NCBI GenBank assembly: GCA_030698645.1
Contig: JAUYMV010000644.1
Location: 1-18,883, forward strand
DNA: 18,883 nucleotides
From: Mesorhizobium sp.
GTDB taxonomy: Bacteria; Pseudomonadota; Alphaproteobacteria; Rhizobiales; Rhizobiaceae
Reading direction: 5' to 3'
Of this stretch, positions 72 through 13,598 are shown piece after piece. Position 1 is the stretch's first letter. Each line of letters starts with the position of its first letter. A model generated the notes under the pieces. That model was not told where the DNA came from, ran no database searches, and was given only the letters and a program-made list of their open reading frames with translations. A program made the translations under genes and the position numbers.

Positions 72-1241
72 CTATCGGATCAGGCCAAGAGCGGCGACGT
101 CGACGCCCAGAGGGGCTGCGAGATCTTCGATCGAATCGTAAAGCAGTTCCAGCGCATAGTGGGGGTTGTGGACATGGACGCCCGGGTCGGAGCCGACGAA
201 CTTCCAGTTGTAGGCGGCCTTCAGCATGCGCGGGCTCCATGCGTTGTAGGACACGGGCTTGCCGTCCACCTGATCCGCCACGCCGTCGCCGTTTGCGTCT
301 GCGAAGAAATAGGGATGGCGGCTGCCGTCATAGTGGAGGGGCACGCCAACGACCTTCACCGCGTAGTCCTCGATCATCGTCTTGAGGCGGCTCGCATTGG
401 CGGTGATGTCGCCTCTGATGCCCTTCTTCAGATCGCCGCTGCCGTCGAAGCTAATACGCGAGATGCGGATGTCCGCCGGCTTGCCCGAGGCGTGACAGGT
501 CAGGCAGGTCTCTTCCGCGACGGTCAAGCTGTGCGGGTCGTGGCAGGAGACGCAGCTTGCCACCGGCTTGGCGTGCAGGAAGCGGCCGGAGTAGTCCTTG
601 CCGGGATACTGGTAGCCCATGCCGCCATAGCCGCCGAGCAGCGTCGCCGCCGCGGTCGCGTAATGCGGGTTTATGAAGGTTAGCTTCGGGTCCGCGGTGT
701 CCTCGGCCTTTCCGTCGACGGCGCGCGAGATGGTCACGCCCGCCGCGCGGCCCTGATGGCAGGTCATGCACGAAAGCTCGCCGCCATCGACCGGATGGCT
801 GATACCGCTCGGCAGCGAAATCGACGTGATCGAGGCCAGCCCCGCATTGTGGCAGGTCTCGCAGTCGACCACCCCGCCGACCTTGACGGGTTGTGCGGGC
901 AAGCCGGGCGCGCTGCCGTCGAGTCCATGCAGGGAGCGGAACCCGGCGCCCGAATGGCAGACGGCACAGACCGGCGGGATCACTCCGTCGGCGTTCCAGT
1001 GGGAGAATGATTCCGAAGCCGCGTCCGAATGGCCGGAGCGTGCCCAGGCGGCGATATATTCGCCCTGCGGTATCGCAATCCGCTCGGGCGCGAATGGACC
1101 TGACTTGGGCATCACATAGATCGGCGCCGCCTCAGCGGCCGGTGCGGACTGGGCGCGCCCTTCTTTCGTGTCCTGCAGAAGTGCGACAGCCGCCGACAGG
1201 GCGGTGCAAAAAATCGCGATCGGTATGAACAGGCGGCGCAT
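72..1241 (-). CDS. secreted pentahaem c-type cytochrome
   Basis: Five CxxCH haem-attachment motifs are visible (CAVCH, CETCH, CMTCH, CVSCH, CLTCH) at about residues 92-96, 127-131, 158-162, 230-234 and 246-250 of a 389-residue protein. The N-terminus (MRRLFIPIAIF...) is a Sec signal peptide, with possible cleavage near AQS-A, so the mature protein should be periplasmic. No other membrane segment is seen. The C-terminal third lacks haem motifs but holds a calcium-type loop (DANGDGVADQVDG) and a His-rich helix (HNPHYALELL) that may supply distal haem ligands. I chose the ATG at 1241 because the signal peptide begins there and GAGG precedes it. An in-frame ATG at 1268 would add nine residues. 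The gene is divergent from nqrA and shares its control region. Role inferred: periplasmic electron carrier or reductase linked to the NQR complex. Not assigned to a named family. Confidence 0.9.
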   Translation of the reverse strand: MRRLFIPIAIFCTALSAAVALLQDTKEGRAQSAPAAEAAPIYVMPKSGPFAPERIAIPQGEYIAAWARSGHSDAASESFSHWNADGVIPPVCAVCHSGAGFRSLHGLDGSAPGLPAQPVKVGGVVDCETCHNAGLASITSISLPSGISHPVDGGELSCMTCHQGRAAGVTISRAVDGKAEDTADPKLTFINPHYATAAATLLGGYGGMGYQYPGKDYSGRFLHAKPVASCVSCHDPHSLTVAEETCLTCHASGKPADIRISRISFDGSGDLKKGIRGDITANASRLKTMIEDYAVKVVGVPLHYDGSRHPYFFADANGDGVADQVDGKPVSYNAWSPRMLKAAYNWKFVGSDPGVHVHNPHYALELLYDSIEDLAAPLGVDVAALGLIR

Positions 1242-1275
1242 CTTGGCCTCGCAGCTTGCTGGGGTCATGGGCGTT

Positions 1276-1326: not shown

Positions 1327-1340
1327 CTGATACAGATCAA
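1327..1340. promoter_or_regulatory. FNR/FixK/Dnr-type anaerobox
   Basis: CTGATACAGATCAA matches the Crp/Fnr-family consensus TTGAT-N4-ATCAA at nine of the ten defined positions. Relative to the candidate minus-strand -10 it sits near the -41.5 activation position for the cytochrome gene. It lies 17 bases upstream of the nqrA TTG start and downstream of the candidate plus-strand -10, where a bound regulator would more likely block nqr transcription. Which protein binds, and with what effect, is inference. Confidence 0.55.
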
Positions 1341-1357
1341 TGTCGGAGGACGGAATC

Positions 1358-2629
1358 TTGGCTTTACTCGACCGTGGACAGACCGAGCCGACCGATACCC
1401 TCAAGAGCGCGAGTGCTGAGATCCAGACCCGTATCACCGACCAATGCGCGCTGTTCTCGCAGCCGCAAGACGACTTTCGCGTCGAAACCCTGGTCGCACA
1501 AGGCGCGCGGGTCCGGCAGGGTGCGCCGGTGCTGCGATCCCGCCGCCAACCCGAGTTGACGCTGGTTGCGCCGGTCGCAGGCGAAGTCGCCGCCATTGAG
1601 TTCGGGCCAGGGCGGCGGCTCGTCCACATTCTCTTCTTCCATCTGCCCGACGCCGGACGTCACGCCCATGATGTCGCGGCCGCGCGCGGCGGCGACGATG
1701 CCCCGGCCACGCGCGCGCTGTTGTTGTCCGCCGGAATGTGGACGCGCCTGCGCTCGCGCCCCTTCGGCCGCGTTCCTGCGCCGGCCGAGCAGCCTTCCGC
1801 CATCTTCGTCATGGCTCTCGACACGCGACTGGACGCCCCCCCGCCGACGCTTGCCCTGGCGGGACGAGAGGAGGATTTTTTGCGCGGCTTGCGCGCGCTT
1901 GCGAGGCTGACCGCCGGTCCGCTGGTTGTCTGCCACGACGGCAGCGCCATACCCGCGCAAATCGCAGGCTTGGGCGAAAACGTCCGGTTCCACCGGATCG
2001 CCCCGGTGCATCCGAAAGGCCTGGCCGGGCTGCAGATCGCCGCGCTGCATCCGGCGGAAGCCGGCCGCCCGGTGTGGGACGTCCACGCCGAGGACGTCGC
2101 CGATTTCGGCGCGCTGCTGGCGACCGGATTGGTGCCGGAGACGCGGCTGGTTTCGGTGTCGGGACTGGCGCTGCGCGAGAACCGTCTTATGCGCTGCCAG
2201 CCCGGCGCCGATCTGCGCGCACTATGCTTCGACATCGTCAAGCCGGGCCCGCACCGGCTGCTAACCGGTCTACACGACGGCGTCGAGGCCCGTTGGCTCG
2301 GCCCCTGGGCGCGCCAGGTGGTCGCGGTCAAGGGCGCAACGGCTCCGCCCCGGCGGCACTGGTTTTCCGCCGCCTTGCGCAGCGCCGGACGGCCCCTGCC
2401 GATCATTCCGACGGCCGCCCTCGATGAGGCTTTCGGCGGTCTGCTCCCATCGACCGCGCTGATGCGCGCGCTGGCCGCCAACGACGCCGAGACCGCCGCT
2501 CGGTTCGGCGCCCTTTCGCTTATCGAGGAGGATTTGGCGCTCGCTGACTATCTGACCGCCGCCAGGCCCCGCTTTGCGATCATGCTGCGCGCCATGCTCG
2601 ACCGCGTGGCCGCCGAGGAGCGGGCGTGA
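1358..2629 (+). CDS. nqrA: Na+-translocating NADH:quinone reductase subunit A (divergent)
   Basis: NqrA is the cytoplasmic subunit of Na+-NQR, on the quinone side of the complex. The 423 residues follow the family along their length: an N-terminal RGQTEP at the usual KGLDLPI position, a biotinyl-like early domain (VAPVAGEV), RSRPFGRVPAP near the usual RTRPFSKVP, and a C-terminal GALSLIEEDLALADYL at the usual LGALELDEEDLALCTF. The Cys residues often found in that last block are absent, and the stretch before it is shortened. I chose TTG at 1358 because GGAGG at 1345-1349 precedes it by eight bases and the protein then begins where NqrA normally does. An upstream in-frame ATG at 1340 has no ribosome site and overlaps the FNR-type box. 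The gene overlaps nqrB by four bases. It is the most divergent soluble subunit here. Confidence 0.85.
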   Translation: MALLDRGQTEPTDTLKSASAEIQTRITDQCALFSQPQDDFRVETLVAQGARVRQGAPVLRSRRQPELTLVAPVAGEVAAIEFGPGRRLVHILFFHLPDAGRHAHDVAAARGGDDAPATRALLLSAGMWTRLRSRPFGRVPAPAEQPSAIFVMALDTRLDAPPPTLALAGREEDFLRGLRALARLTAGPLVVCHDGSAIPAQIAGLGENVRFHRIAPVHPKGLAGLQIAALHPAEAGRPVWDVHAEDVADFGALLATGLVPETRLVSVSGLALRENRLMRCQPGADLRALCFDIVKPGPHRLLTGLHDGVEARWLGPWARQVVAVKGATAPPRRHWFSAALRSAGRPLPIIPTAALDEAFGGLLPSTALMRALAANDAETAARFGALSLIEEDLALADYLTAARPRFAIMLRAMLDRVAAEERA

Positions 2630-3399
2630 CGCGCGGCATCTGGGATCGTGAGACGGTCGCCCTGCTGCTTCTGGCGGCAGCCCTGCCGCTCGCGGCGACA
2701 TGGCTGCTTTCGACCGGCATGACCGGCGCGCTGCGGCTCGTCTTCGTGCTGGTTGCCGCGGGCCTCTGGCACGTGGCCTTCATGCTGGCGCGCGCGCAGC
2801 CGCCATCCTTCGCCGGCGCATTGACCGCGCTCGCGATCGCCCTGCTTGCGCCGGTCGACCTGGGCCCAATCCCGATGCTGCTCGGCATCAGTTTCGGCGT
2901 GGTGGCCGGCGAGCTTGCCTTCGGCGGCTGGGGCCGCAACGTGGTCAATCCGGCGACGCTCGCCATCGCCTTCCTCGGCTTCGGCTTTCCGGCCGCGCCA
3001 TGGCCGGTCCTGCCGATCCAGCTGGGCTGGTCGGTGATCGCCGTCGTGGCGATCGGAACCTTCGCGGGCGTGATCGCGTGGCGCGTGGTGGCGGGCGCGG
3101 GGGCCGCGATCGCCGTCGGATGGTATTCGCTCGGACTGGGCATGCCCGTCGCCACCGCCGCGGCGGTAGTCCTCGTTCTGCTGGTCTGCGATCCGGTGAC
3201 CAGCGCGTCCACCAACCTCGGACGATGGCTCTACGGGCTGCTCTACGGCGCGCTGGTGTTGCTCTTCGCGCTCGGCTGGAAGGGGGCGGTCCCGGTTCAG
3301 GTCGCGGTCTCCGCGGCGCTTCTCGCTTCGCTTGCAGCCCCGCTTCTCGACGAAATTGCCATCCGTCTGTGGCTTGCCCGGAGGAAACGCCTTGGCTGA
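2626..3399 (+). CDS. nqrB: NQR subunit B, short form lacking the FMN-bearing loop (NqrB/RnfD family)
   Basis: NqrB is the membrane subunit that normally holds a covalent FMN and riboflavin. This protein has 257 residues, against roughly 400-415 usually. It keeps FGGWGRNVVNPA (residues 99-110, matching FGGTGRNFLNPA) and DPVTSASTNLGRWLYG (189-204, matching DPVSASFTNSGKWAYG), plus hydrophobic segments throughout. The N-terminal extension of about 100 residues is missing. After FPAAPWP (about 127) it passes straight to the next membrane segment, so the loop carrying the S-G-A-T flavinylation motif is absent. The reading frame is continuous, so this is not a frameshift. GTG start, with GAGGAG upstream, overlapping nqrA. 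Its place between nqrA and nqrC supports NqrB over RnfD. Function without FMN-B is inferred to be altered. Confidence 0.85.
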   Translation: MTRGIWDRETVALLLLAAALPLAATWLLSTGMTGALRLVFVLVAAGLWHVAFMLARAQPPSFAGALTALAIALLAPVDLGPIPMLLGISFGVVAGELAFGGWGRNVVNPATLAIAFLGFGFPAAPWPVLPIQLGWSVIAVVAIGTFAGVIAWRVVAGAGAAIAVGWYSLGLGMPVATAAAVVLVLLVCDPVTSASTNLGRWLYGLLYGALVLLFALGWKGAVPVQVAVSAALLASLAAPLLDEIAIRLWLARRKRLG

Positions 3400-4192
3400 T
3401 CTCAATCCTCTCTCGCTCTGGCGGCGCTTCATCGCGACGCCGAACGACAACCGCGCGAAGACGCTTTTCGTCGCCTTTCTCGTCTCGCTGATCTGCGCGC
3501 TGCTCGTGACCGGCGCGACCGTCATGCTGCGCCCGATCCAGGCGCAGAACCGCGCGGCCGAGCAGCAGGCACGACTGGAAGCGCTGATCTCGGCCGTCCC
3601 CGGCATTTCCGACTTGATCGCCGAATCCGGTGGGGATGCGCTCTCGACCGTCGTCATCGACCTCGACGCCGGGACTGCTGCCGCCGCAGTGACCCCGGAG
3701 ACGTTGGAGGCAGCACTCTCCGACCAGGCGAACTGGACGACCCTTGCAGCCGCTGACGACACCGCAGGCATCGGCAATCGCCCGAACTATGCCCAGATCT
3801 ACCTGCTGCGGAGCGGCGACGCCGTCTCGCTCGCCATCCTACCGGTGGTCGGAAGCGGCTACGGCGGTCGCATCCAGGCGCTGCTGGCGCTGCGTGGCGA
3901 CATGCAGACCCTGGCGGGCATCGCGGTGACGGAGCAGTCGGAGACGCCAGGTCTCGGCGCGCGGATCGAGGAGCCGCAATGGCAACAAGGCTTCGCCGGC
4001 AAGCGTCTGGTCGACGACACGGGCGCGACGCGCTTCGCCGTGGCACGCGGGCCGGCGCGCACCGAATACGAGGTGGACGGCATCACCGGCGCGACGCGCA
4101 CCAGCAACGCCATGACGCAGATGGTGCGCTTCTGGGTTGGCCCGAAGGGCTATGGCCCGCTGATCGCCGCCATCCGTCGCGGAGAGTTTTAG
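3392..4192 (+). CDS. nqrC: NQR subunit C, covalent-FMN periplasmic subunit
   Basis: NqrC is a single-pass membrane protein whose periplasmic FMN-binding domain carries FMN bound through a phosphoester to threonine. The 266-residue product has a cytoplasmic N-terminus (ADLNPLSLWRRF), one membrane helix at about residues 24-46 (TLFVAFLVSLICALLVTGA), the family motif ETPGLGARIEEPQW, and DGITGATRT with the acceptor Thr at about 235. I chose TTG at 3392: GGAGG at 3380-3384 lies seven bases upstream and the product then begins just before the helix. The longer frame from 3332 would run deep into nqrB. The eight-base overlap with nqrB indicates translational coupling. ApbE from the same operon is the expected flavinylating enzyme. 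Confidence 0.93.
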   Translation: MADLNPLSLWRRFIATPNDNRAKTLFVAFLVSLICALLVTGATVMLRPIQAQNRAAEQQARLEALISAVPGISDLIAESGGDALSTVVIDLDAGTAAAAVTPETLEAALSDQANWTTLAAADDTAGIGNRPNYAQIYLLRSGDAVSLAILPVVGSGYGGRIQALLALRGDMQTLAGIAVTEQSETPGLGARIEEPQWQQGFAGKRLVDDTGATRFAVARGPARTEYEVDGITGATRTSNAMTQMVRFWVGPKGYGPLIAAIRRGEF

Positions 4193-4195
4193 GCG

Positions 4196-4858
4196 ATGGC
4201 GGCCAGCGAAAGCCTGTGGAGCACATTGACGGCGCCGCTGATCCGGCAGAACCCGGTCATGTTGCAGATCCTCGGCATCTGCTCGGCGCTCGCCGTCACG
4301 ACCTCGCTCGATACCGCGCTGACGATGTCGGCTTCGCTGACCGTGGTCGTGGTGATGGCAGCGGGCGTCATCAGCCTGATCCGCCGGCATATCCCCAATT
4401 CGATCCGGCTGATCGTCCAGATCATCATCATCGCTTCCATGGTTATCGTCACCGACCAGTTCCTGAAGGCCTATTTCTTCGAGCTGAGCCAGCGCCTCTC
4501 GGTCTTCGTCAGCCTGATCGCCACCAACTGCATCGTGCTTGGCCGTACCGAATCCTACGCCCGCAACCACCGGCCGCTGCCTTCCATGGTCGATGCGCTC
4601 GGCAGCGGACTGGGCTACGGGCTGGTGCTCACGCTCATCGGCGCCTGCCGCGAACTGTTCGGCAGCGGCAAACTGCTCGGCCACCAGGTCCTGCCACTGG
4701 CCGAGCAGGGCGGCTGGTTTACGCCGCTCAGCCTGATGCTGATGGCGCCCAGCGCCTTCTTCCTGCTCGGCGGTCTTGTGTGGGCGGTGCGCAGCATCTG
4801 GCCCGAACAGGCCGATGCGCCGGATTTCCCGCCGCATGATCTCAGGGAGGAGCGCTGA
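4196..4858 (+). CDS. nqrD: NQR subunit D, membrane Fe-S subunit
   Basis: NqrD is a six-helix membrane subunit that pairs with NqrE to hold an intramembrane 2Fe-2S centre between the cytoplasmic and periplasmic redox sites. The 220-residue protein shows PVMLQILGICSALAVTT near the N-terminus and SLIATNCIVLGRTESYA in the middle. The two key cysteines fall at residues 29 and 112, the same numbers as in the Vibrio cholerae protein. The helices and length are normal for the family. The ATG start has GGAGAG upstream and lies three bases after the nqrC stop. The gene overlaps nqrE by one base (TGATG). Confidence 0.95.
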   Translation: MAASESLWSTLTAPLIRQNPVMLQILGICSALAVTTSLDTALTMSASLTVVVVMAAGVISLIRRHIPNSIRLIVQIIIIASMVIVTDQFLKAYFFELSQRLSVFVSLIATNCIVLGRTESYARNHRPLPSMVDALGSGLGYGLVLTLIGACRELFGSGKLLGHQVLPLAEQGGWFTPLSLMLMAPSAFFLLGGLVWAVRSIWPEQADAPDFPPHDLREER

Positions 4859-5469
4859 TGGCCGATCTCGGCGCGCTTTTTCTGCGGGCAGCGTTCGTCG
4901 AGAACATGCCGCTGACCTATTTCCTAGGACTCTGCACCTTTCTGGCGCTGTCGCGGCGCCCGGATACGGCCTTTGGCCTTGGCCTTGCGATCACCGTGGT
5001 AATGGGCGTCTCGGTGCCGCTCAACCAACTCATCTATGCCGGCATTCTCGCCCCCGGTGCGTGGCGCTGGGCAGGCATGCCGGAGATCGACCTCTCCTAT
5101 CTGTCGCTCATCACCTTCATCGGCGTGATCGCCGCCACCGTCCAGTTGCTCGAAATGGTGCTCGAGCGATTCATGCCGCGCATCCACGCATCTTTCGGTG
5201 TGTTCCTGCCGCTTCTCACGGTGCAGTGCGCCATTCTTGGCGGAAGCCTGTTCATGGTCGAGCGCCGCTACGATCTGGCGGAGGCCGCGGTCTACGGGGT
5301 GGGCAGCGGCGCGGGGTTCGCGCTCGCGGTGGTCATGCTCGGTGCCATCCGCAGCCGGCTCGCCTATGCCGACCTTCCGGCGGGCCTGCGTGGCCTGGGC
5401 ATCGCCTTCCTGCTCGCCGGCATGATGTCGCTCGGCTTTTCCTCCTTCGCGCAGATGGCCGCGCAATGA
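4858..5469 (+). CDS. nqrE: NQR subunit E, membrane Fe-S subunit
   Basis: NqrE is the inverted-topology partner of NqrD in the membrane core. The 203-residue product contains FVENMPLTYFLGLCTFLALS (Cys26) and LPLLTVQCAILGGSLFMVER (Cys124), the two cluster-ligand positions. It ends with the conserved LPAGLRGLGIAFLLAGMMSLGF block. Length and helix pattern are normal. A strong GGAGG precedes the ATG, which overlaps the nqrD stop, and its own stop overlaps the nqrF start (ATGA). Nothing unusual is seen, which contrasts with the reduced NqrB. Confidence 0.95.
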   Translation: MADLGALFLRAAFVENMPLTYFLGLCTFLALSRRPDTAFGLGLAITVVMGVSVPLNQLIYAGILAPGAWRWAGMPEIDLSYLSLITFIGVIAATVQLLEMVLERFMPRIHASFGVFLPLLTVQCAILGGSLFMVERRYDLAEAAVYGVGSGAGFALAVVMLGAIRSRLAYADLPAGLRGLGIAFLLAGMMSLGFSSFAQMAAQ

Positions 5470-6686
5470 CCGAGATCGCGCTGGGATCAATCTTCATAAC
5501 CCTGCTCGTCGTCGCGCTGACGGGCGCGCTGATCCTGGCGCGCAATCGGCTGATACCGCAGGAGGCGGTGACCGTCACCATCAACGGGAGAAAGCGCATC
5601 GAGGCCGCCCGCGGCGACCAGCTTCTCTCGGTCCTTCAGGGCGCCGGCATCGCCATCCCCGCCGCCTGCGGCGGCAGCGGGACTTGTGGCCTCTGCCGCG
5701 TCACGGTCGAGGGCACCGGACTTGGCGATGCGCAGGCGACGGAGCTCGGCATTCTGTCGCCCGCCGACCGTCGCAACCATGTTCGCCTTGCCTGCCAGAC
5801 CAAGCTGCGCGGTCCGGTGGACGTAACCGTCGCAGCGGACGTGCTGGCGGCGGAGAGTTTTCCCTGCCGGGTGCTCTCCAACCGCATGCTGGCGCCGCTG
5901 ATCCGCGAACTGGTGCTCGAGCTTCCGGAGGGGCGCGAATTCAGGTTCCGCGCCGGCGCCTTCATGCAGCTCACCGCGCCCGCCTACACGCTCGACTTCG
6001 CCACGGTGGAACTGGATTCCGCCCACGAGCAGGCGTGGCGCATCGCCGGCTGGCCAGCCCTGAAGTCGGTCTCCGCCGCGCCGGTGACGCGCGCCTATTC
6101 GATTGCCAGCCGGCCGCGGGATGTCGGTCGCATTGTCTTCAACATCCGCCTCGCCGTGCCGCCCGCCGGGCGCGAGCAGGACGTTCCGCCCGGCGTCGTC
6201 TCGTCCTATTTGTTCGCCTTGCGCGAAGGCGATACGGTCGAGGCCGGCGGACCTTTCGGCGACTTCCATGTCCAGCCGACCGAACGCGAGATCGTGTTCA
6301 TCGGCGGCGGCGTCGGCATGGCGCCGCTGCGCGCCATGATCCACGAGCAGATTGGCCTGGGGACAAGGCGGCGCATCTCCTATTTCTACGGCGCGCGCAC
6401 CGCGGCCGACCTCTTCTATGTCGAGGAGTTCGAGGCGATCGCGGCCAAGAACAGCAATTTCACCTGGACGCCGGCGCTCTCCGACCCCGCCCATTCGGAC
6501 CGCTGGACCGGCGCGACCGGCTTCATCCACGACATCGTACGCAAGGCGCTCGCCACCCATCCCGCACCGTATGAGTGCGAATACTATCTGTGCGGACCGC
6601 CGGTCATGATCTCTGCGGTGCTCGCCATGCTCAACCGGCTGGGCGTCGAGCCGCACTCCATCTACAATGACGACTTCGGAGGCTGA
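5466..6686 (+). CDS. nqrF: NQR subunit F, NADH-oxidising flavoprotein
   Basis: NqrF accepts hydride from NADH on FAD and passes single electrons to its 2Fe-2S cluster. The 406-residue protein has an N-terminal membrane anchor (residues 4-26), a plant-type ferredoxin domain with cysteines 68, 74, 77 and 110 (CGGSGTCGLC plus a distal Cys), a flavin-binding RAYSIAS motif, a nucleotide-binding GGGVGMAPLRAM and the C-terminal YLCGPP. All catalytic elements of the family are present at normal length. The start is the ATG overlapping the nqrE stop. The frame is open further upstream, but that part is a shadow of nqrD/E. Three bases separate it from apbE. Confidence 0.96.
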   Translation: MTEIALGSIFITLLVVALTGALILARNRLIPQEAVTVTINGRKRIEAARGDQLLSVLQGAGIAIPAACGGSGTCGLCRVTVEGTGLGDAQATELGILSPADRRNHVRLACQTKLRGPVDVTVAADVLAAESFPCRVLSNRMLAPLIRELVLELPEGREFRFRAGAFMQLTAPAYTLDFATVELDSAHEQAWRIAGWPALKSVSAAPVTRAYSIASRPRDVGRIVFNIRLAVPPAGREQDVPPGVVSSYLFALREGDTVEAGGPFGDFHVQPTEREIVFIGGGVGMAPLRAMIHEQIGLGTRRRISYFYGARTAADLFYVEEFEAIAAKNSNFTWTPALSDPAHSDRWTGATGFIHDIVRKALATHPAPYECEYYLCGPPVMISAVLAMLNRLGVEPHSIYNDDFGG

Positions 6687-6689
6687 ACC

Positions 6690-7691
6690 ATGCGTTCCAG
6701 ACCCACGGCACTCGACAGACGCTGCTTTCTTGCCTTGGGCGGCGCGCTCTGCCTTGCAGGCGTCGCGCCTGCCCGCGCCACGGAGGCGTCCCCCCTGACT
6801 GGCTTGAACGGCGCGGCCTTCGGCACGCATTGGAGCATTTCGCTGCCGGCCGGAGCCGGCCTCTCCGGACTACGGTTACGTCTCGATGCGCTTCTGGCAG
6901 AGCTCGACCTTGCCTTCTCTCCGTGGCGGCCGGACAGCATCGTCGCCCGGTTCAATGCGGGCACGGCGCGCGACATGTCCGTCACGGAGGAGATCGCGGC
7001 GGTGACAGGCGCAGCCCTCCGGATCGCGGCGGCAAGCGGCGGCGCGTTCGACCCGACCGTCGGGCCGCTGGTCGCCCGCTGGGGTTTCGGCCCGATTCGG
7101 GCCGGCGGGACGCGGCCCGGAGGCTGGCTCAAGCTGGCGGCTGGAAACGGACATATCGCGAGGGCCGAAACGGACCTGACGCTCGACCTCTGCGGCATCG
7201 CCAAGGGACATGCGCTCGACCGCATGGTGGCGCTGCTGCACGATGCGGGTCACGAGCATTTCTTAATCGAGTTTGGCGGCGAACTCGCCGCGCGCGGTCG
7301 GCACCCGTCGGGCAGGGCCTGGCAGGTCGGCATCGAGACGCCGCTCCCCGGAACCGAGGAAATCGCCGGCGTGCTGCGGCTGGACGGCATGGCGGTCGCC
7401 ACGTCCGGGGACCTGGTCAACGGCTACGACGTTGGCCGCCGACGCTACAGCCACATCATTGATCCCACGACCGGCGAGCCGGTCGAGAGTGCGCTGGCCT
7501 CGGTATCGGTACTGACGGCGACCGCGCGGGAGGCCGATGGCTGGGCGACGGCGCTGATGTCGGCCGGGCAGGCCGGACCGGACCTCGCGCGCCGTCTGGA
7601 CATCGCGGCGCTGTTCCTCTTCCGCGACGGACCGGGTCTGCGCAGCGTCGCGACCGGGACCTTCCGGCGGCATTTCGACGAGGCTGTCTGA
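6690..7691 (+). CDS. apbE: FAD:protein FMN transferase
   Basis: ApbE cleaves FAD and attaches FMN to threonine in S/T-G-A-T motifs of exported or membrane proteins. The 333-residue product has a twin-arginine-like signal (DRRCFLALGGAL, then AxA near residue 30), GGAFDPTVGPLVARWGFG (118-134), LDLCGIAKGHALDR (165-178), FGGELAARG, ATSGDLVNGY (238-246) and YSHIIDPTTGEPV (253-265). CGGAGG precedes the ATG. In canonical operons ApbE modifies both NqrB and NqrC; here only NqrC has the acceptor motif, unless other targets lie outside the window. Its stop overlaps the nqrM start by one base. Confidence 0.95.
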   Translation: MRSRPTALDRRCFLALGGALCLAGVAPARATEASPLTGLNGAAFGTHWSISLPAGAGLSGLRLRLDALLAELDLAFSPWRPDSIVARFNAGTARDMSVTEEIAAVTGAALRIAAASGGAFDPTVGPLVARWGFGPIRAGGTRPGGWLKLAAGNGHIARAETDLTLDLCGIAKGHALDRMVALLHDAGHEHFLIEFGGELAARGRHPSGRAWQVGIETPLPGTEEIAGVLRLDGMAVATSGDLVNGYDVGRRRYSHIIDPTTGEPVESALASVSVLTATAREADGWATALMSAGQAGPDLARRLDIAALFLFRDGPGLRSVATGTFRRHFDEAV

Positions 7692-7858
7692 TGGAAGCGC
7701 TCCTTGCCGTCCTGATCGTCAGCCTCGCCGGCGTCGGCCTCGGCGTCGGCCTCATGCTCGGTCGCGGTGCGCCGCGCAGGAGCTGCGATGGCCTTGCATG
7801 CCTCGGCGGGACACGCTGCGAGGGCTGTCCCCATGCCGAACCGGAGCAGGCACAATGA
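7691..7858 (+). CDS. nqrM: NqrM, small membrane maturation factor for NQR
   Basis: This 55-residue protein has one N-terminal membrane helix (residues 3-24, rich in Leu, Val and Gly) followed by a four-cysteine segment: Cys32, Cys37, Cys43 and Cys46 (SCDGLACLGGTRCEGCPH). The layout and position after apbE match NqrM (DUF539), which is needed to assemble the Fe centre of NqrD/NqrE. ATG at 7691 overlaps the apbE stop, and its own stop overlaps the next ATG (ATGA), so translation is coupled both ways. It is easily missed because of its size. Confidence 0.9.
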   Translation: MEALLAVLIVSLAGVGLGVGLMLGRGAPRRSCDGLACLGGTRCEGCPHAEPEQAQ

Positions 7859-8274
7859 CGACCGATGCCGTCATCGAGCACATCATGCGGACCGATTTCC
7901 TCCGGCTGTCGCCTTCCATGCCGATCAGGGAAGCTGTGGCAGCCTTTGCGCGCGGGCGTGAGTCCGCTGCGCCGGTCATCGACGGGGACGGTGCCCTTGC
8001 CGGCATCCTGACCGAGAAGGACTGCTTCCGGCCGATGCTCAACGCCTGCTATTATCAGCAATGGGACGGCAGCGTTGCGGCCTTCATGACCCGCGACGTG
8101 AGGGCGCTCTCGGTCGACCTCGATCTCGTCTCGGCCGCGGAAGAGTTCCTGGCCCGGTCCCACCGGGTCTATCCCGTCCTGCGCGATGGCGAAATTGTCG
8201 GACTGCTGCACAGGTCGGACCTTTTCGCGGCCATCCTCGCACTCTCGGAACGTGGGGCGGTTTCGGCGGGCTGA
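7855..8274 (+). CDS. tandem CBS-domain protein
   Basis: This 139-residue soluble protein consists almost entirely of two CBS motifs. The first, about residues 5-62, has IMRTDFLRLSPSMPIREAVAAF and APVIDGDGALAGILTEKDC. The second, about 74-130, has FMTRDVRALSVDLDLVSAAEEF and YPVLRDGEIVGLLHRSDLF. CBS pairs bind adenosine nucleotides (AMP, ATP, NAD or similar) and act as energy sensors; the ligand cannot be read here. The ATG at 7855 lies inside the nqrM stop, placing it in the nqr operon, so a role in tuning NQR activity or assembly is plausible but inferred. A longer in-frame start at 7798 would overlap nqrM and adds non-CBS sequence. Confidence 0.88.
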   Translation: MTTDAVIEHIMRTDFLRLSPSMPIREAVAAFARGRESAAPVIDGDGALAGILTEKDCFRPMLNACYYQQWDGSVAAFMTRDVRALSVDLDLVSAAEEFLARSHRVYPVLRDGEIVGLLHRSDLFAAILALSERGAVSAG

Positions 8275-8374
8275 CCGGCTCAGTGAAGCAGCCCTTCGCC
8301 TGCGTGGACCCCGAGGTTCCTGCCGGATGTCCGGCTTCATTGGACGGGCTCAAAGCACGGGCCGACGCGGCCTT

Positions 8375-8397
8375 GAGGCGGACCGAAGGCCCGCCTC
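8375..8397. terminator. candidate bidirectional hairpin between convergent operons
   Basis: GAGGCGG (8375-8381) and CCGCCTC (8391-8397) form a perfect 7-bp stem with a nine-base loop. It lies between the CBS gene and the oppositely oriented aldehyde dehydrogenase. There is no T tract on either side, so it is not a textbook intrinsic terminator. Confidence 0.35.
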
Positions 8398-8423
8398 GCT
8401 AGGTCCGATCCCGCCGGCCGCCT

Positions 8424-9935
8424 CTACTCAACGTCGAAGGAGACGCCCTGGGCCAGGGGCAGCGCGTGGGAATAGTTCACCGTGTTGGTGGCGCGGCGCA
8501 TATAGGCCCGCCAGGCGTCCGATCCGCTCTCGCGGCCGCCGCCGGTTTCCTTCTCGCCGCCGAACGCGCCGCCGATCTCAGCTCCCGAGGTGCCGATGTT
8601 GACGTTCGCGATGCCGCAGTCGGACCCCTCCGCCGACAGGAAGCGCTCCGCCTCGCGCAGGTCGAGCGTGAAGATCGACGAGGACAGCCCCGCGCCGACC
8701 GCGTTGTGCGCCGCAATCGCCTCCTCGAGATCGCTGTAGCGCATCACATAGAGGATCGGCGCGAAGGTCTCTTCCAGGACCGGGCCGTCCTGCTCGGGCA
8801 TCTCGACGATTGCCGGTCGTGCATAATAGGCGTCCGCGTCGCGCGTCGCGAAACGCTCGCCGCCGGTCACCTTGCCGCCCAGCGATTTCGCCGCGGCCAG
8901 CGCCCTTTGCATGTTGTCGAAGGCCGCCTTGTCGATGAGCGGGCCGATCAGCGCCGACGTTTCCAGCGGGTTTCCGATCGAGACGCTCTCATAGGCCTTC
9001 CTCAGGCGGGGAACGAGGGACTCATAGACGCTGTCGTGCACGAACAGCCGCCGCATGGTCGTGCAGCGCTGGCCCGCCGTCCCCATCGCGCCGAAGGCGA
9101 TCGCGCGCAGCGCCATGTCGAGGTCCGCTGTCGGACAGACGATGCCGGCATTGTTGCCGCCGAGTTCGAGGATCGCGCGGGCGAACCGCTTCGCCAGGCG
9201 CGGGCCGACATCGCGCCCCATGCGGGTCGAGCCGGTGGCGGATACCAGGGCGACCTTTGGATGGTCGACAAGCACCTCGCCGATGGATCGGTCGCCTATG
9301 AGCACCTGGAGCAGCCCGTCCGGCGCATCGCCGAACCGCTTCAGCGCGCGGCCGAAGATCGCCTGGCACGCGAGGGCGGTCAGCGGCGTCTTTTCCGACG
9401 GCTTCCAGACGACGCTATCGCCGCAGACGAGGGCGAGCGCCGCGTTCCACGACCAGACGGCGACGGGGAAGTTGAAGGCCGAGATGACGCCGACGACGCC
9501 GAGCGGATGCCAGGTTTCCATCATGCGGTGCCCCGCTCGCTCGGTCGCGATGGTCAGACCGTAGAGCTGGCGCGACAGTCCGACCGCGAAGTCACAGATG
9601 TCGATCATCTCCTGCACCTCGCCGAGGCCTTCCGATGGGATCTTGCCGACCTCGATCGAGACCAGCCGGCCGAGATCCTGCTTCGAGGCGCGCAGTTCCT
9701 CGCCGAGCAGGCGCACCAGTTCGCCGCGCCGCGGCGGCGGCACGTTGCGCCAGACGCGGAACGCGGCGGCGGCGGCCTCGATCGCCTCGCCCGCATCGGC
9801 TGGCGAGATCGTCCTGAGGGAAGCGATCTGGGAACCGGAAACCGGGCTCCTGACTGTCATGTCGCCGCCCGAGAGCAGCCCGGCGTCGACGCCGAGGCGA
9901 ACGAGGATGCTGCTGGTTTCTTGCTTCAGGTCCAT
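8424..9935 (-). CDS. amaB: ALDH7-family aldehyde dehydrogenase (aminoadipate semialdehyde / piperideine-6-carboxylate dehydrogenase type)
   Basis: The enzyme oxidises L-2-aminoadipate 6-semialdehyde (in equilibrium with piperideine-6-carboxylate) to aminoadipate with NAD+ in lysine catabolism. The 503-residue protein has the ALDH fold with FNFP (154-157), WKPSEKTP, ELGGNN (Glu257) and the catalytic Cys291 in TAGQRCTTMRRLFVH. The C-terminal TSGAEIGGAFGGEKETGGGR, followed by ESGSDAWRAYMRRATNTVNY, is nearly the antiquitin (ALDH7A1) signature, which sets it apart from other ALDH groups. ATG at 9935 is preferred. The frame runs on to 10085, but that extension is Arg-rich and unlike the family. The ribosome site is weak. 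It stands alone, with no lysine-pathway neighbours. Family certain; exact substrate likely. Confidence 0.93.
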   Translation of the reverse strand: MDLKQETSSILVRLGVDAGLLSGGDMTVRSPVSGSQIASLRTISPADAGEAIEAAAAAFRVWRNVPPPRRGELVRLLGEELRASKQDLGRLVSIEVGKIPSEGLGEVQEMIDICDFAVGLSRQLYGLTIATERAGHRMMETWHPLGVVGVISAFNFPVAVWSWNAALALVCGDSVVWKPSEKTPLTALACQAIFGRALKRFGDAPDGLLQVLIGDRSIGEVLVDHPKVALVSATGSTRMGRDVGPRLAKRFARAILELGGNNAGIVCPTADLDMALRAIAFGAMGTAGQRCTTMRRLFVHDSVYESLVPRLRKAYESVSIGNPLETSALIGPLIDKAAFDNMQRALAAAKSLGGKVTGGERFATRDADAYYARPAIVEMPEQDGPVLEETFAPILYVMRYSDLEEAIAAHNAVGAGLSSSIFTLDLREAERFLSAEGSDCGIANVNIGTSGAEIGGAFGGEKETGGGRESGSDAWRAYMRRATNTVNYSHALPLAQGVSFDVE

Positions 9936-10268
9936 GATCGTGTCTTGCCTTTTTCGTTTCGTTCCGGTCCCGCGTCGATGCCGCGACTCACGCTCGGTCG
10001 GGTTGATCCGTCTTGGCGGCGCGGGGGGGCTCCGTTTGCCGGGCTGCATGCGCCGCTCGACATGACACGCCCTGTGTCGACCCAACCCATATTCGGCCCT
10101 GACGCTTCCGTCGAGTCGACCACGCCACGATCCGAAGCGGCGCGAAAGTTTGTCGAATTGTGCCGACCGGCTATCATGATCCGGCCGAGTTTGGCACTAT
10201 GCTACTGGCCTAGCAGGCGGCGCAGGCGCCGGTCGATCCGTGCATTTCGCGGCGGGAGAAACGGCGGA
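9936..10268. other. 333-base divergent intergenic region (amaB / lptB)
   Basis: No supportable gene is seen. The part near lptB holds a candidate promoter (10150-10177). A short inverted repeat, GACAC at 10064-10068 and GTGTC at 10074-10078, could be an operator for either gene, but five-base arms are weak evidence. A run of seven G lies at about 10023-10029. Confidence 0.4.
10150..10177 (+). promoter_or_regulatory. candidate housekeeping promoter for lptB
   Basis: TTGTCG (10150-10155) and TATCAT (10172-10177) are separated by 16 bases, resembling -35 and -10 elements. They lie about 90 bases upstream of the lptB start in non-coding DNA. The fit is moderate only. Confidence 0.35.
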
Positions 10269-11024
10269 GTGACGGAAGGTAGAGTGAACCAGACGGCTCC
10301 AGTCGCCAAGCTGAGCGGATTTCGGCTGCACAAGTCGTTCTCGGCGCGCGAGGTCGTCGCGGGCGTCGACCTGCATATCCGGCGCGGCGAAATCGTCGGC
10401 CTGCTCGGCGCGTCAGGATCTGGCAAATCCACGATCTTCAACATGATCGCCGGCCTGTTGCGGCCCGACGAGGGACAGATCGTCATCGACAGTCGCGACA
10501 TAACGAACGCCGGCATCGACGCCAGGGCGCGCCTCGGCATCGGCTATGTTCCCCAGTCTCCATCGCTGTTTCCCAAGCTGACGGCCGAGCAGAACCTGCG
10601 CATCGCGATCGAGGCGAGTGGCACGCGAGGCGCCGCCGTCGAGCCGGTCCTGACCGCGATCTGCAGGGCGTTCAACCTCGACGCGTTTCGACGCACCCGC
10701 CTGGCAAACCTCTCTGGCGGCCAGCGCAAATGGGTCGAGATCGCTTTCGCGATGTGCGGAAAGCCGCGATTCCTTCTCCTCGACGAGCCCTTTGCCGGCC
10801 TCGACCCGATCGCATCCAACCAGCTTTCCGCCTTCGTTTCGAGGCTCGCCAGGCTGGGCATCGGAATATTGCTGACCGACCACAATGTGCGCAATGCTCT
10901 GCAACTCGTCGAGCGCGCCTATGTGATCGACACCGGAATGATCATCGCATCGGGAAACTCCAGCGACATCGTCAATGACGATGATGTGCGAACTGTTTTC
11001 CTCGGCGACAAATTCGCGCTGTAG
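10269..11024 (+). CDS. lptB: LptB-type ABC transporter ATPase
   Basis: LptB is the cytoplasmic ATPase that, with LptF and LptG, extracts lipopolysaccharide from the inner membrane. The 251-residue protein has Walker A GASGSGKST (47-55), a Q-loop in YVPQSPSLFPKLTAEQNL, the signature LSGGQRKWVEIAF (148 on), Walker B FLLLDEPFAGLDP (168-180), an H-loop at His205 (TDHNVRNAL) and the C-terminal VFLGDKFAL that resembles the LptB ending YLGEDFRL. These details separate it from branched-chain amino acid ATPases. GTG at 10269 is used, with GGGAG ten bases upstream. GTG at 10284, behind GGAAGG, is nearly as good. The lptFG genes follow, supporting the assignment. It could be a paralogue of a housekeeping LptB elsewhere. 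Confidence 0.85.
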   Translation: MTEGRVNQTAPVAKLSGFRLHKSFSAREVVAGVDLHIRRGEIVGLLGASGSGKSTIFNMIAGLLRPDEGQIVIDSRDITNAGIDARARLGIGYVPQSPSLFPKLTAEQNLRIAIEASGTRGAAVEPVLTAICRAFNLDAFRRTRLANLSGGQRKWVEIAFAMCGKPRFLLLDEPFAGLDPIASNQLSAFVSRLARLGIGILLTDHNVRNALQLVERAYVIDTGMIIASGNSSDIVNDDDVRTVFLGDKFAL

Positions 11025-11053
11025 CGAAGTCACCGATACATTTGCTAGGAGAC

Positions 11054-11197
11054 ATGGATTCACGCGACCGGCCGGTACGCATCGACAGGAACGACATGGC
11101 GTCTGCGACAGCAGGAGGATACGCAGGGGAGCGGGCCGCTCGGAGTGGCCTCCGCTGCCTCGCACCCGGCGGCCGCAGGCACGGATCGCGACGCTGA
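11054..11197 (+). CDS. possible small leader ORF coupled to lptF
   Basis: ATG at 11054 follows AGGAG (11047-11051) at a spacing of two bases and opens 47 codons. The TGA stop at 11195-11197 shares its last base with the lptF ATG (TGATG). The predicted peptide (MDSRDRPVRIDRNDMASATA...) is Arg-rich with no recognisable domain. Third-position G+C is about 70% by hand count, lower than expected for genes here. It may be a translated leader that feeds ribosomes to lptF, which has no good site of its own, or it may be chance. Not assigned a function. Confidence 0.3.
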   Translation: MDSRDRPVRIDRNDMASATAGGYAGERAARSGLRCLAPGGRRHGSRR

Positions 11198-12381
11198 TGC
11201 GCTATGCCGGTGCGATCACGCTGTCGATCATCGTCCTCTTCGTCGCGATCTTCGCGACGCTGGTTTCTGTCTTCGCGATCGAAAAGCTCACCAACATCAT
11301 CGACATCTTCCTGCGCTTCAAGATCGAGCCGCGGATCCTGCTGTTGCTGTATGCGTCGATCCTGCCGGACGTGGCGGACTTCATCCTGCCCATTGCGGTT
11401 CTCATCGCCGTCTATGTCGTCGTCCTGCGCAAGCGGGAGGCGCGCGAATTCCTGGTTCTGTCAAGCGCCGGCGTCGGCCACAGGCATCTGCTGGTCGCTG
11501 GCTTCGGTTCGGCGGTGGTCGCCGTCGTGCTGTGCGGCGTGCTGTCCGGCTTCGTCAAGCCCTATGCCAGCCTGGCGTACCGTCAGCAATATGCGCAGGC
11601 CTTCGCCAACGCCTTGTCGAAGGGCATATCGGGCGGCCAGATCTACCGGCAGGAAGAGAACTTCATGTTCGTCTCCGCGCCGAGCGCGGGGGCGGCAAAG
11701 CAGATGCGCGTCTTCAGTTTCAAGGAGGAGCGTCTTGAGCGGCTCACCATTTCCGATTGCGCCGAACTGCGCGCGTTTGGCGAGCGCATCCTCGCCGATC
11801 TCTGCGATGCGCGCATCTATCTGTTCGGTGTCGACCCGCCTGGCGTCGACAATCGCCGACGCGACGCGTCGTCCCCGCCTTCCGACGTATCCGGCTGCCG
11901 GTTCTGCACGACCGAGACGGGCGATCTCGACGTCGCGCGCATTCAGATCGGACGCTCGTCGCTCGCCTTCGACATGAACACGCTGCTCGGGCAGGTCGCC
12001 GAGCCGCAGAGCCGCAACCGGTCCGTCGTCGATCTGCTCGGGATGCGCAATGGCGTCTTCCGTTCCGCCTCGGATGCGCGGCTGGCGGGAACCTACATTC
12101 TCCTCTCGCTGACATGCCTGCTCGCGGTCAGCATCGCGTTCGGCGCCGTCGCCGCGACGGCGCAACGCACCGGGCCGCTGGCGCTCGGCGGCGGGATCGC
12201 GCTGTTGATCGCCGCGATCGTCGCCGCCAGTTCCGGGATCCTGCTGATCGGGCCGGTCAGGAATCCGCTCTATTTCGCCGGATTGGTCGGCACGACTGCG
12301 CTGATCTGTGCCGGAACGATCGTATTCGTGGTCTACGCCTTTCATCGAAAACTCGTCACGCCGATGTTCATGCAGGCATGA
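11197..12381 (+). CDS. lptF: LptF/LptG-family permease (first copy)
   Basis: LptF is an inner-membrane permease half whose periplasmic jellyroll domain receives LPS for transfer to LptC/LptA. The 394-residue product shows the family layout: three N-terminal helices (about 4-28, 59-78, 97-118), a periplasmic domain of about 120-297, and three C-terminal helices (about 298-320, 328-350, 358-380). The segment FILPIAVLIAVYVVVLRKREAREF is typical of the family second helix and loop. A CxxC (CRFC, 234-237) lies in the periplasmic domain. ATG at 11197 is the only canonical start in a sensible place and has a poor ribosome site. The start may depend on coupling from the small ORF upstream. It overlaps lptG by four bases. 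LptF and LptG are hard to tell apart by eye, so the symbol is by gene order. Confidence 0.85.
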   Translation: MRYAGAITLSIIVLFVAIFATLVSVFAIEKLTNIIDIFLRFKIEPRILLLLYASILPDVADFILPIAVLIAVYVVVLRKREAREFLVLSSAGVGHRHLLVAGFGSAVVAVVLCGVLSGFVKPYASLAYRQQYAQAFANALSKGISGGQIYRQEENFMFVSAPSAGAAKQMRVFSFKEERLERLTISDCAELRAFGERILADLCDARIYLFGVDPPGVDNRRRDASSPPSDVSGCRFCTTETGDLDVARIQIGRSSLAFDMNTLLGQVAEPQSRNRSVVDLLGMRNGVFRSASDARLAGTYILLSLTCLLAVSIAFGAVAATAQRTGPLALGGGIALLIAAIVAASSGILLIGPVRNPLYFAGLVGTTALICAGTIVFVVYAFHRKLVTPMFMQA

Positions 12382-13598
12382 CACCGTTCCGCACCCTGTC
12401 TGCAACTGTGGCGCGTCACGTCAGGCGTTGGCCGCCACGTCTCGGCCTCTACGGCCGGGTCATGCTCTTCCACTATGTCTGGCACATCCAGATCGTTTTC
12501 CTTGCGCTTGTGGGGGCGGTAACCGCCATCAACATTTCGCCCGAGGTTGCCGGCGTCTGGGCCGGCGACGGGGCCGACGGCTATTGGACGAGCGTGGCGC
12601 GGTTGTCGGAATATGTCTTCTACCGGCTGCTGGACAATGGCTCGCAGGTGTTTCCGGTGGCATTCGTGCTGGGCATCGTCTGGGCCGAGGTGGCGCATGT
12701 GCACAGCGGCCGGCAGACCATGGTGCGCACCGCCGGAATGCCCTTCGAGCGCGCCGCGACCGCGCTTTTTCTCGTCGCGGGGCTTTCCGTTCCGGTGCAG
12801 TTCCTGATCGACAATGCGGTGCGGCCCTATGCCTTCATGAGCCTCAGCCTCAAGGGACTGGGCGAATATGGCTGGGCCTATGGACAGGAGCACGCGAAGC
12901 AGACCCGATGGCTGCCGTTCGACGGCGACATCGTGCAGTTGGAGGTAGGGGACGATCCCGAGCCGCGCATGTCGCATATTACATTCTACGAATTCTCGCG
13001 TGACGGCGATCTGCGGCGTCTGGTCGACGCGGAGGCGGCCGAGGCGCATCCCGACGGCGCGCTCACTCTGACCAACGCGCGCGCATGGGATTTCTCGCGC
13101 AGCCCGGCGGCGGCCGCCGACGAGACGGAGGTCATCGACATGGCGGCACGGTTCACCGAGCACGCCAGGCTCGACATGGATCTCGCCATCGCGCCGCTCT
13201 GGCTCGAGTATCGCGGGATCGCCGCGAAATACATTCCGCTCGCAGATCTCGCGCGCCTGGCGCGTGCAACCGGCGTGCCAGACAACGCGCCGCACTACGC
13301 GGTGTGGCTGAAGATCCGTTTCGCCCAGGCCTTCGCGCCCGGCCTGATCGCCGTGTGCCTCAGCGGAATTTTCTTCATTTTTCTGGATCGCTTCGGCCTG
13401 CGCATCGCGGCCGCGATCATGCTCTTGGCGGGCTATCTCGGTTTCACCGCGGTCCGCGTCATGGCGGTGGTCGCCGACCACGGCGTGTTGCCGGACTTGA
13501 TCGCCATCTGGTCGCTGCCGGCCCTTCTTGCGATCGCGGCAATCCTGCTGATCCGCTTCATCCGCCGCCGCGACCGATACTACGAACCGGGCGGCTGA
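12378..13598 (+). CDS. lptG: LptF/LptG-family permease (second copy)
   Basis: This is the second permease half of the LptB2FG-type complex. The 406-residue product has an Arg-rich cytoplasmic N-terminus, helices at about 28-50, 90-108 and 128-148, a soluble periplasmic domain of about 150-310 (containing WLPFDGDIVQLEV and MSHITFYEFSRDGDLRRLVD, like the family beta-strand repeats), and three C-terminal helices with IFFIFLDRFGLRIAAAIMLL. The length slightly exceeds the usual 360-390. ATG overlaps the lptF stop (ATGA). It ends 16 bases before the convergent lipid-kinase gene. Sequence similarity to textbook LptG is modest, so a specialised lipid substrate is possible but unproven. Confidence 0.82.
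   Translation: MTPFRTLSATVARHVRRWPPRLGLYGRVMLFHYVWHIQIVFLALVGAVTAINISPEVAGVWAGDGADGYWTSVARLSEYVFYRLLDNGSQVFPVAFVLGIVWAEVAHVHSGRQTMVRTAGMPFERAATALFLVAGLSVPVQFLIDNAVRPYAFMSLSLKGLGEYGWAYGQEHAKQTRWLPFDGDIVQLEVGDDPEPRMSHITFYEFSRDGDLRRLVDAEAAEAHPDGALTLTNARAWDFSRSPAAAADETEVIDMAARFTEHARLDMDLAIAPLWLEYRGIAAKYIPLADLARLARATGVPDNAPHYAVWLKIRFAQAFAPGLIAVCLSGIFFIFLDRFGLRIAAAIMLLAGYLGFTAVRVMAVVADHGVLPDLIAIWSLPALLAIAAILLIRFIRRRDRYYEPGG

Follow-up and report, generated by a model that had tools for sequence, protein, structure and literature searches.

A conserved sister lineage of Na+-NQR with a shortened NqrB, probably delivering electrons to a periplasmic cytochrome

The stretch of Mesorhizobium sp. DNA analysed here (18,883 nucleotides, contig JAUYMV010000644.1 of assembly GCA_030698645.1, called the window at its full length) carries at 1340-8274 of its + strand an operon in the order nqrA-nqrB-nqrC-nqrD-nqrE-nqrF-apbE-(small NqrM-like)-cbs, in which all six nqrABCDEF genes stand in a single unit whose order is repeated across the loci of relatives, and, divergent to nqrA, a gene for a pentahaem cytochrome (Table 1). 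The operon is of interest for its short NqrB, which lacks the threonine segment bearing flavin mononucleotide (FMN) in the canonical subunit. It represents a conserved sister lineage of the Na+-translocating NADH:quinone oxidoreductase (Na+-NQR) that probably delivers electrons to a periplasmic cytochrome, and this system is both real and larger than was apparent in an earlier sequence-only reading of the window, which had singled out NqrB.

Table 1. Features of the operon and of the divergent cytochrome gene in the window.
Feature	Position	Strand	Remarks
Pentahaem c-type cytochrome	72..1268	-	398 aa, five CXXCH, signal peptide judged by eye
Likely true start of the cytochrome	1241		M10
FNR/CRP-type box CTGATACAGATCAA	1327..1340		1 mismatch to TTGATN4ATCAA; between cytochrome gene and nqrA
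nqrA-like	1340..2629	+	429 aa; under nqrA equivalog cut-offs; without conserved Cys cluster
Short NqrB	2626..3399	+	257 aa, GTG start; without FMN-Thr loop and N-terminal quinone-site helices
Junction in short NqrB replacing the FMN loop	2995..3030	+	residues ~124-135; exact site alignment-dependent
nqrC	3392..4192	+	TTG start; FMN_bind domain, flavinylation motif DGITGAT
nqrD	4196..4858	+	above TIGR01939 cut-off; C29, C112
nqrE	4858..5469	+	above TIGR01940 cut-off; C26, C124
nqrF	5466..6686	+	2Fe-2S, FAD and NAD domains; above TIGR01941 cut-off
apbE, FAD:protein FMN transferase	6690..7691	+	found in 70/80 loci
Small protein, presumably NqrM-like	7691..7858	+	55 aa, hydrophobic N-terminus, 4 Cys (3 nearly invariant); 69/80 loci
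Twin-CBS-domain protein	7855..8274	+	last gene of the operon, nearly constant: 75/80 loci

The nqrB frame had been described as intact, with the core motifs GRNxxNPA and DPVTSAS retained and both the S-G-A-T loop and the long N-terminal extension lacking, and this description holds. The frame is unbroken, the two motifs lie at residues 103-110 and 189-195, and PF03116 (NQR2_RnfD_RnfE) is the sole Pfam family matched, at 67.5 bits where the cut-off is 27.7, while the NqrB equivalog cut-off is missed (70.2 against 349.9 bits). Comparison by phmmer with Vibrio cholerae NqrB from the PDB paired residues 39-124 with 134-219 and residues 134-253 with 294-408, a family profile giving a similar result; since this alignment skips both the FMN-threonine segment and the N-terminal extension, both are absent. 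The FMN-loop region counts 9 residues against 74 in V. cholerae by phmmer and 26 against 70-76 in canonical NqrBs by MAFFT, for a net loss of about 45-65 residues that varies with the alignment. No [ST]GA[ST] motif was found anywhere in the window's NqrB that could stand in for the missing flavinylation site. Kyte-Doolittle segments of the short protein overlapped too strongly to yield a number of helices.

A search for other short NqrBs with a like gene order revealed a conserved lineage. In 80 loci (the best 80 of 119 confirmed in the scan, one genome per species), the length of NqrB was 253-273 aa in all 80, so that the short form is not a damaged gene, and protein relatives measured 208-264 aa among the matches listed (120 of 623). 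These loci belong nearly all to Rhodobacterales and Rhizobiales, with a few other alphaproteobacteria and one labelled Marinicella. Laboratory strains that carry the operon include Shinella granuli DSM 18401 and Paracoccus solventivorans DSM 6637. The short form is thus conserved over dozens of genera, which gives good support to the earlier view of a complex "functional but rewired". The two conditions named earlier as refuting that view also turned out in its favour, as this protein has no flavinylation motif elsewhere and no second PF03116 gene was found in the genome (93% complete). In public databases these proteins are named "RnfABCDGE type electron transport complex subunit D" or NqrB (P0041, P0059, P0107 and others), labels by which the missing FMN site is obscured.

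Residues, as named in the available text of PMC10643135 and PMC12174285, were mapped onto 81 short NqrBs of a first group (group I) and 12 of a more distant one (group II), the latter having emerged from a 248-genome sample of one family, with profile relatives of 229-297 aa among the matches listed (120 of 234). The flavinylated-threonine segment was shortened in 93/93, with the motif at that site in none; an [ST]GA[ST] was present in three other short NqrBs (L010, L047, L111) at three differing places, none of which is the canonical threonine site. The stretch holding the FMN-threonine together with the Na+ ligand A263 was gone in 93/93, the region of E273 and V275 falling outside the phmmer alignment and being partly aligned by MAFFT. 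The acid of the periplasmic exit, present in 20 of 21 full-length comparison sequences, was mostly Val, Leu, Ala, Ile or Pro in the 93. In group I, the Na+-path residue E157 was Phe or Leu in 72/81 and the gate residues F338 and F342 were replaced by Val, Ile or Leu (74/81) and by Leu (73/81), respectively; the gate was mostly retained in group II (10/12 and 11/12). The quinone site of canonical NqrB comprises N-terminal helices and the residues L138, G141, N156 and F159 in the accounts available from PMC12174285 and PMC10643135. N156 was Ser in 81/81 of group I and F159 Gly or Ala in 77/81, G141 being retained in 64/81. The ligands of riboflavin were, on the other hand, largely kept in group I (G198 81/81, N200 78/81, N203 72/81, A205 80/81, D346 77/81, and T162 63/81 with Ser in 12) and are present in the window's NqrB, whereas in group II G198 (12/12) and D346 (11/12) persisted while N200 was Gly in 7/12 and N203 Ser in 6/12. 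We infer that the electron chain ends elsewhere than in canonical NQR. The rewiring proposed in the sequence-only reading stands, although that reading had overlooked the cytochrome gene (72-1268) and the changes at the quinone site (N156, F159) and along the Na+ path (E157, F338, F342).

The input side of the complex is conserved, in keeping with the earlier statement that NqrC, D, E and F retain their redox motifs. TIGRFAM equivalog cut-offs were passed by nqrC (149.1 against 144), nqrD (275 against 244.9), nqrE (266.8 against 247.6) and nqrF (405.6 against 295), certain narrower NCBIfam models for nqrC and nqrE being also missed, as was the nqrA equivalog cut-off (190.6 against 321.1 bits). 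Among sequences of similar length, the cluster cysteines were conserved in NqrD (C29 75/76, C112 76/76), NqrE (C26 and C124, 79/79) and NqrF (C68, C74, C77 and C110, 79/79). The NqrC flavinylation motif [ST]GA[ST], DGITGAT in the window, was found in 77/77 complete NqrC among the 80 loci, the incomplete ones being two truncated at contig ends and one with a broken frame (L076).

The pentahaem cytochrome gene was detected by tblastn in divergent orientation to nqrA in 77 of the 80 loci; two of the three exceptions (L036, L066) end within nqrA and the third (L010) has, at the place of nqrA, an open reading frame (ORF) that we take to be transposase-like. Exactly five CXXCH motifs were present in 76 of 77 extracted cytochromes, among which that of L039 is not included. 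For 89 cytochromes from all contexts, chosen by a length above 330 aa and five CXXCH, the five motif histidines and H80, H202, H232 and H246 were conserved in 89/89 and H367 in 88/89, the next best being H90 with 82. These ten conserved histidines are most simply read as ligands of five bis-His haems in an electron carrier. A catalytic enzyme like NrfA, which has one CXXCK catalytic haem and four CXXCH, is not favoured, all five motifs being CXXCH with five more histidines conserved in 88-89 of 89; the match to the Cytochrom_C552 profile reached 21 bits, below the cut-off of 24.1. ORFs with at least two CXXCH were found in 0 of 14 canonical alphaproteobacterial nqr operons (6-11 kb fetched) and in none of eight canonical operons of other Pseudomonadota and six Rnf loci (6-12 kb fetched). 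In the canonical alphaproteobacterial controls, apbE lies upstream of nqrA and divergent to it in 11/14. Beyond the cytochrome gene, 10 of the 80 loci (L067 and nine others, near position 6800) carry a gene that is presumably of cation:proton antiporter type.

Cytochrome and short NqrB also go together across genomes. In the 248-genome sample, 27 of the 31 genomes that have short NqrB (30 from the family search and G434) carry the cytochrome, as compared with 12 of the 217 that have no short NqrB. These counts exclude two weak matches at an expect value (E) of about 1e-4, and the Fisher values for them treat related genomes as independent and so are only indicative; among the 27, the gene is broken in G341 and on a separate contig in G486. 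In a sample of 289 genomes of the class, strong cytochrome matches (E <1e-50) occurred in two, the same two that carry short NqrB. Another 37 genomes had weaker NqrB matches only, with frames of 294-451 aa taken as canonical, and two of these (G335, G339) carry the cytochrome elsewhere in the genome. Short-NqrB counts are lower bounds, since the genome search missed G434, recovered by tblastn in L090. Short and canonical NqrB matches were found together in two of the 30 short-NqrB genomes of the family sample (G426, G452); the two complexes can thus coexist.

The cytochrome can, moreover, exchange its partner. Loci with a lone cytochrome were fetched for 11 of the 12 genomes (G446 left out), and a further cytochrome copy was taken from G375. 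Eight of these 11 loci, and the G375 copy as well, have the cytochrome divergent to a member of a single protein family, whose identity to the L088 member is 61-67% and which has the domains Ferric_reduct, FAD_binding_8 and NAD_binding_1 in the three members scanned. This two-gene module of cytochrome and ferric-reductase/NOX-type NAD(P)H protein, seen in L088, L089, L091, L092, L094, L096, L097, L099 and L112, is apparently an alternative to the short-Nqr operon. In L095 (4866-8549) the pentahaem cytochrome adjoins an OTR-like protein with nine CXXCH and a Cytochrome_cB domain (PF11783), with a cytochrome b561 downstream, and this set may represent a variant of the system fed by quinol; no clear partner could be discerned beside the cytochrome in L093 and L098. 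Conversely, among group II operons with upstream sequence available and no pentahaem gene, the divergent slot holds a tetrahaem cytochrome in L104 and an EB_dh haem protein in L108, and neither of the two in L105. Because one periplasmic cytochrome is common to two different NAD(P)H modules, and because the short-Nqr module also pairs with other haem proteins, an outward exit of electrons is indicated, and this is the main argument for it.

A third type of operon (group III, L134) has nqrBCDEF-apbE-nqrM-cbs at 7239-12909, with no nqrA within the 16 kb fetched. A tetrahaem cytochrome gene lies about 2 kb upstream of its nqrB-containing operon.

The relationship of these operons to canonical NQR was examined in Pseudomonadota with a tree of NqrD and NqrE (51 taxa, 447 columns) rooted on four Rnf, two of the six fetched Rnf loci being without usable D or E. 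All 26 operons with a short NqrB formed a single clade (ultrafast bootstrap, UFBoot, 93) and the 21 canonical NQR, from alphaproteobacteria and other Pseudomonadota, its sister clade (UFBoot 99), all NQR being united at 100; a tree of NqrD, NqrE and NqrF with 39 taxa divided the operons in the same way, at a support of 1.0. With respect to group I, group II is paraphyletic. By these trees, the short-NqrB operons are a sister lineage of canonical NQR and not a one-off loss. The flavinylation motif was found in three of four RnfD frames examined; since RnfD thus has the flavinylated threonine, its loss within the short lineage is the simplest history. The lineage is patchily spread, as none of 40 relatives of the window's organism has the short form. 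A phylum sample of 249 genomes had it only in G000 and G292, both alphaproteobacteria, the remaining matches at E 1e-8 or better having frames of 367-440 aa.

The intergenic region between cytochrome and nqrA was searched for an FNR-type box (TTGATN4ATCAA) in 75 divergent regions, namely the window and 74 loci with both starts placeable. With at most one mismatch the box occurred in 12/75 regions (0.4 in shuffles, 0.1 for other palindromes) and with at most two in 30/75 (4.7 and 4.4), a clear box being missing in 45/75; tight gene borders give 9/75 and 26/75 and exclude the box of the window, which abuts on the start annotated for nqrA. From its sequence context, a TTG at 1358, preceded by GGAGGA, looks a likelier start than the listed ATG at 1340. 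Cytochrome regions linked to the ferric reductase had the box in 7/9 with at most two mismatches (against 0.1), and upstream of 13 canonical nqrA genes there were two boxes against 1.4, that is no enrichment. The presence of the FNR-type box suggests that the short-Nqr operon is used at low oxygen. The divergent promoter region of the window also contains a perfect palindrome, CGTTAGC-GTCAT-GCTAACG at 1276-1294, possibly a second operator.

Judged from genes and conservation, it is fairly likely that the operon encodes an Nqr-like complex with six subunits that belongs to a separate lineage, where the path through NqrB to quinone has been dismantled and electrons leave outwards via the FMN of NqrC to the periplasmic cytochrome. 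Electrons would pass from NADH through the FAD and 2Fe-2S cluster of NqrF to the 2Fe-2S cluster between NqrD and NqrE, and from there to the FMN on the periplasmic NqrC, which would reduce the pentahaem cytochrome c in place of FMN-B, riboflavin and ubiquinone; the cytochrome would hand them to a further periplasmic acceptor. The FMN of NqrC is a mobile shuttle on the periplasmic side in the available text of PMC12174285, so that reduction of the cytochrome would need no new membrane crossing. The short NqrB would serve as scaffold, in group I with a riboflavin side branch as well, and any ion pumping would more likely be sited in NqrD/E because NqrB has lost much of the proposed Na+ path. In L134, nqrBCDEF-apbE-cbs persists in the 16 kb without nqrA, which counts for the outward exit. 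It is a more tentative proposal, on the doubtful side of even, that this is a third RNF/NQR branch, an NADH:cytochrome c oxidoreductase bypassing the quinone pool and bc1, with pumping by NqrD/E alone and NqrB reduced to scaffold and riboflavin side branch.

Several observations weigh against an outward exit to the cytochrome. The riboflavin ligands retained in group I would be pointless without electrons entering NqrB, and NqrA is retained in groups I and II. Four of the 31 short-NqrB genomes have no match for the pentahaem cytochrome, 12 genomes carry the cytochrome but no short NqrB, and 3 of the 11 lone loci fetched show no adjacent NAD(P)H partner. The short form was found in none of six same-genus genomes. 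Gene neighbourhood is, furthermore, insufficient as proof of contact between NqrC and the cytochrome.

The retained riboflavin site is the weak point that keeps alive the strongest alternative, namely that the complex is still an NADH:quinone oxidoreductase in which the FMN of NqrC docks in the gap left by the loop and reduces the riboflavin of NqrB, a remodelled site then passing electrons to quinone, while the cytochrome serves some other purpose within the same regulon. Besides the ligands G198, N200, T162, N203, A205 and D346, mostly kept in group I, this would fit the persistence of NqrA in groups I and II and of G141 at the quinone site (64/81), and two-subunit Nqr/Rnf-like complexes are likewise without the NqrB threonine, their model placing the outer flavinylation site near a non-covalent flavin in the available text of PMC11334425. 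However, N156 and F159 are replaced, the N-terminal helices are absent, and the riboflavin ligands themselves give way in group II, at N200 to Gly and at N203 to Ser; the association with periplasmic haem proteins and the missing nqrA of L134 also speak against it. We consider this alternative unlikely, though with a real share of the probability.

Reverse flow, from a periplasmic donor through the cytochrome to NqrC with an ion gradient driving reduction of NAD+, seems distinctly improbable. The steps of NQR and RNF are reversible in principle, reverse Rnf being dealt with in the available text of PMC12174285 and PMC11889175. The anatomy of the operon would, in itself, leave the direction unfixed. 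Ferric-reductase/NOX-type NAD(P)H proteins, the alternative partner of the cytochrome, send electrons outwards, and clustering of neighbour ORFs in the 80 loci, on a crude ORF call, brought out no additional gene, one of lithotrophy for instance, that constantly accompanies operon and cytochrome. Finally, a damaged or misassembled nqrB, leaving the complex non-functional or served by an unlinked full-length NqrB, is practically negligible: its small size, and a genome 93% complete that could hide a second gene, are outweighed by the length class shared by 80/80 loci, by the failure to find a second PF03116 gene in the organism's own genome and by canonical NqrB matches in only 2/30 short-NqrB genomes.

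Compared with known systems, the complex shares with the Na+-NQR of V. cholerae the gene order, NqrF, the NqrD/E cysteines, the covalent-FMN motif of NqrC, apbE and, in group I, the riboflavin ligands, and, by its sequence, may work like Na+-NQR up to NqrC. It differs in an NqrB without FMN-threonine and with altered quinone-site and Na+-path residues, in a divergent NqrA, in the added CBS gene and multihaem cytochrome, and in its separate sister clade; as NqrB is without two of its defining features, the flavinylated threonine and the quinone site, the complex ought not to be classed as Na+-NQR. The Fe-S clusters of RnfB and RnfC in Rnf have no counterpart here, where NqrF is present and NqrA lacks a conserved Cys cluster. 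The Rnf operon of Methanosarcina acetivorans includes a multihaem c cytochrome, MmcA, which acts as electron conduit in the available text of PMC11024163. It is alike in joining a related ion-pump core to a multihaem c cytochrome, a likeness of operon content, and different in that Rnf is ferredoxin-fed and MmcA an archaeal heptahaem protein related to OTR, while the short-Nqr complex is of the NADH-fed bacterial Nqr type with five haems and a shortened NqrB. Two-subunit NQR/RNF-like systems, an NqrB-NqrF fusion and an NqrC-like protein in the available text of PMC8238504 and PMC11334425, have an NqrB-type domain without flavinylated threonine and a proposed one-way flow to extracytosolic acceptors; as far as that text describes them, they lack NqrA, D and E, whereas here there are six subunits, a separate NqrF gene and a cytochrome partner. 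The ferric-reductase/NOX-type oxidoreductases replace the short-Nqr operon beside the pentahaem cytochrome and have NAD_binding_1 in common with NqrF, but are single proteins with a Ferric_reduct membrane domain and no NqrB-E, and we know of no ion pumping by them. No six-subunit NQR with an FMN-less short NqrB or a cytochrome partner was found described by title or abstract opening in the open PMC literature, subscription papers and preprints lying outside the search.

The site of ion movement in this family is disputed: the path runs through NqrB in the available text of Hau et al. 2023 (PMC10643135) and through RnfA/E, the NqrE/D pair, with RnfD uninvolved, in that of PMC11889175. Because Na+-path residues of NqrB are lost or changed while NqrD/E are intact, the short-Nqr complex is a natural test of the pump models, and whether it pumps or not would test both directly; if the outward exit is true, a complex lacking much of the NqrB ion path would decide the pumping site of the family. 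It would also be an NADH-to-periplasm route avoiding quinone, and a bacterial counterpart to MmcA-Rnf.

As to the use of the complex, denitrification was rejected as a general purpose. NosZ was above cut-off in 9/31 genomes with short NqrB and 9/31 without, and NapA in 3/31 and 10/31, with two additional partial matches (G441, G486) on the short-NqrB side; the 31 comparison genomes were hand-picked, 15 without NqrB match and 16 canonical. The window's own genome gave no match for NosZ or NapA. That the short-Nqr complex is the only NADH dehydrogenase of the cell was ruled out by the NuoF of complex I present in the genome.

Among the smaller genes of the operon, the 55-residue protein, which we take to be NqrM-like by its position and its Cys pattern, had no Pfam match even at E 10, and the twin-CBS protein may be a nucleotide or NADH sensor for the complex. 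At the far end of the window (16353-18883), two adjacent frames for ABC-transporter ATPases resemble, from their translations as read, a tandem pair of polysaccharide-export ATPases behind a permease.

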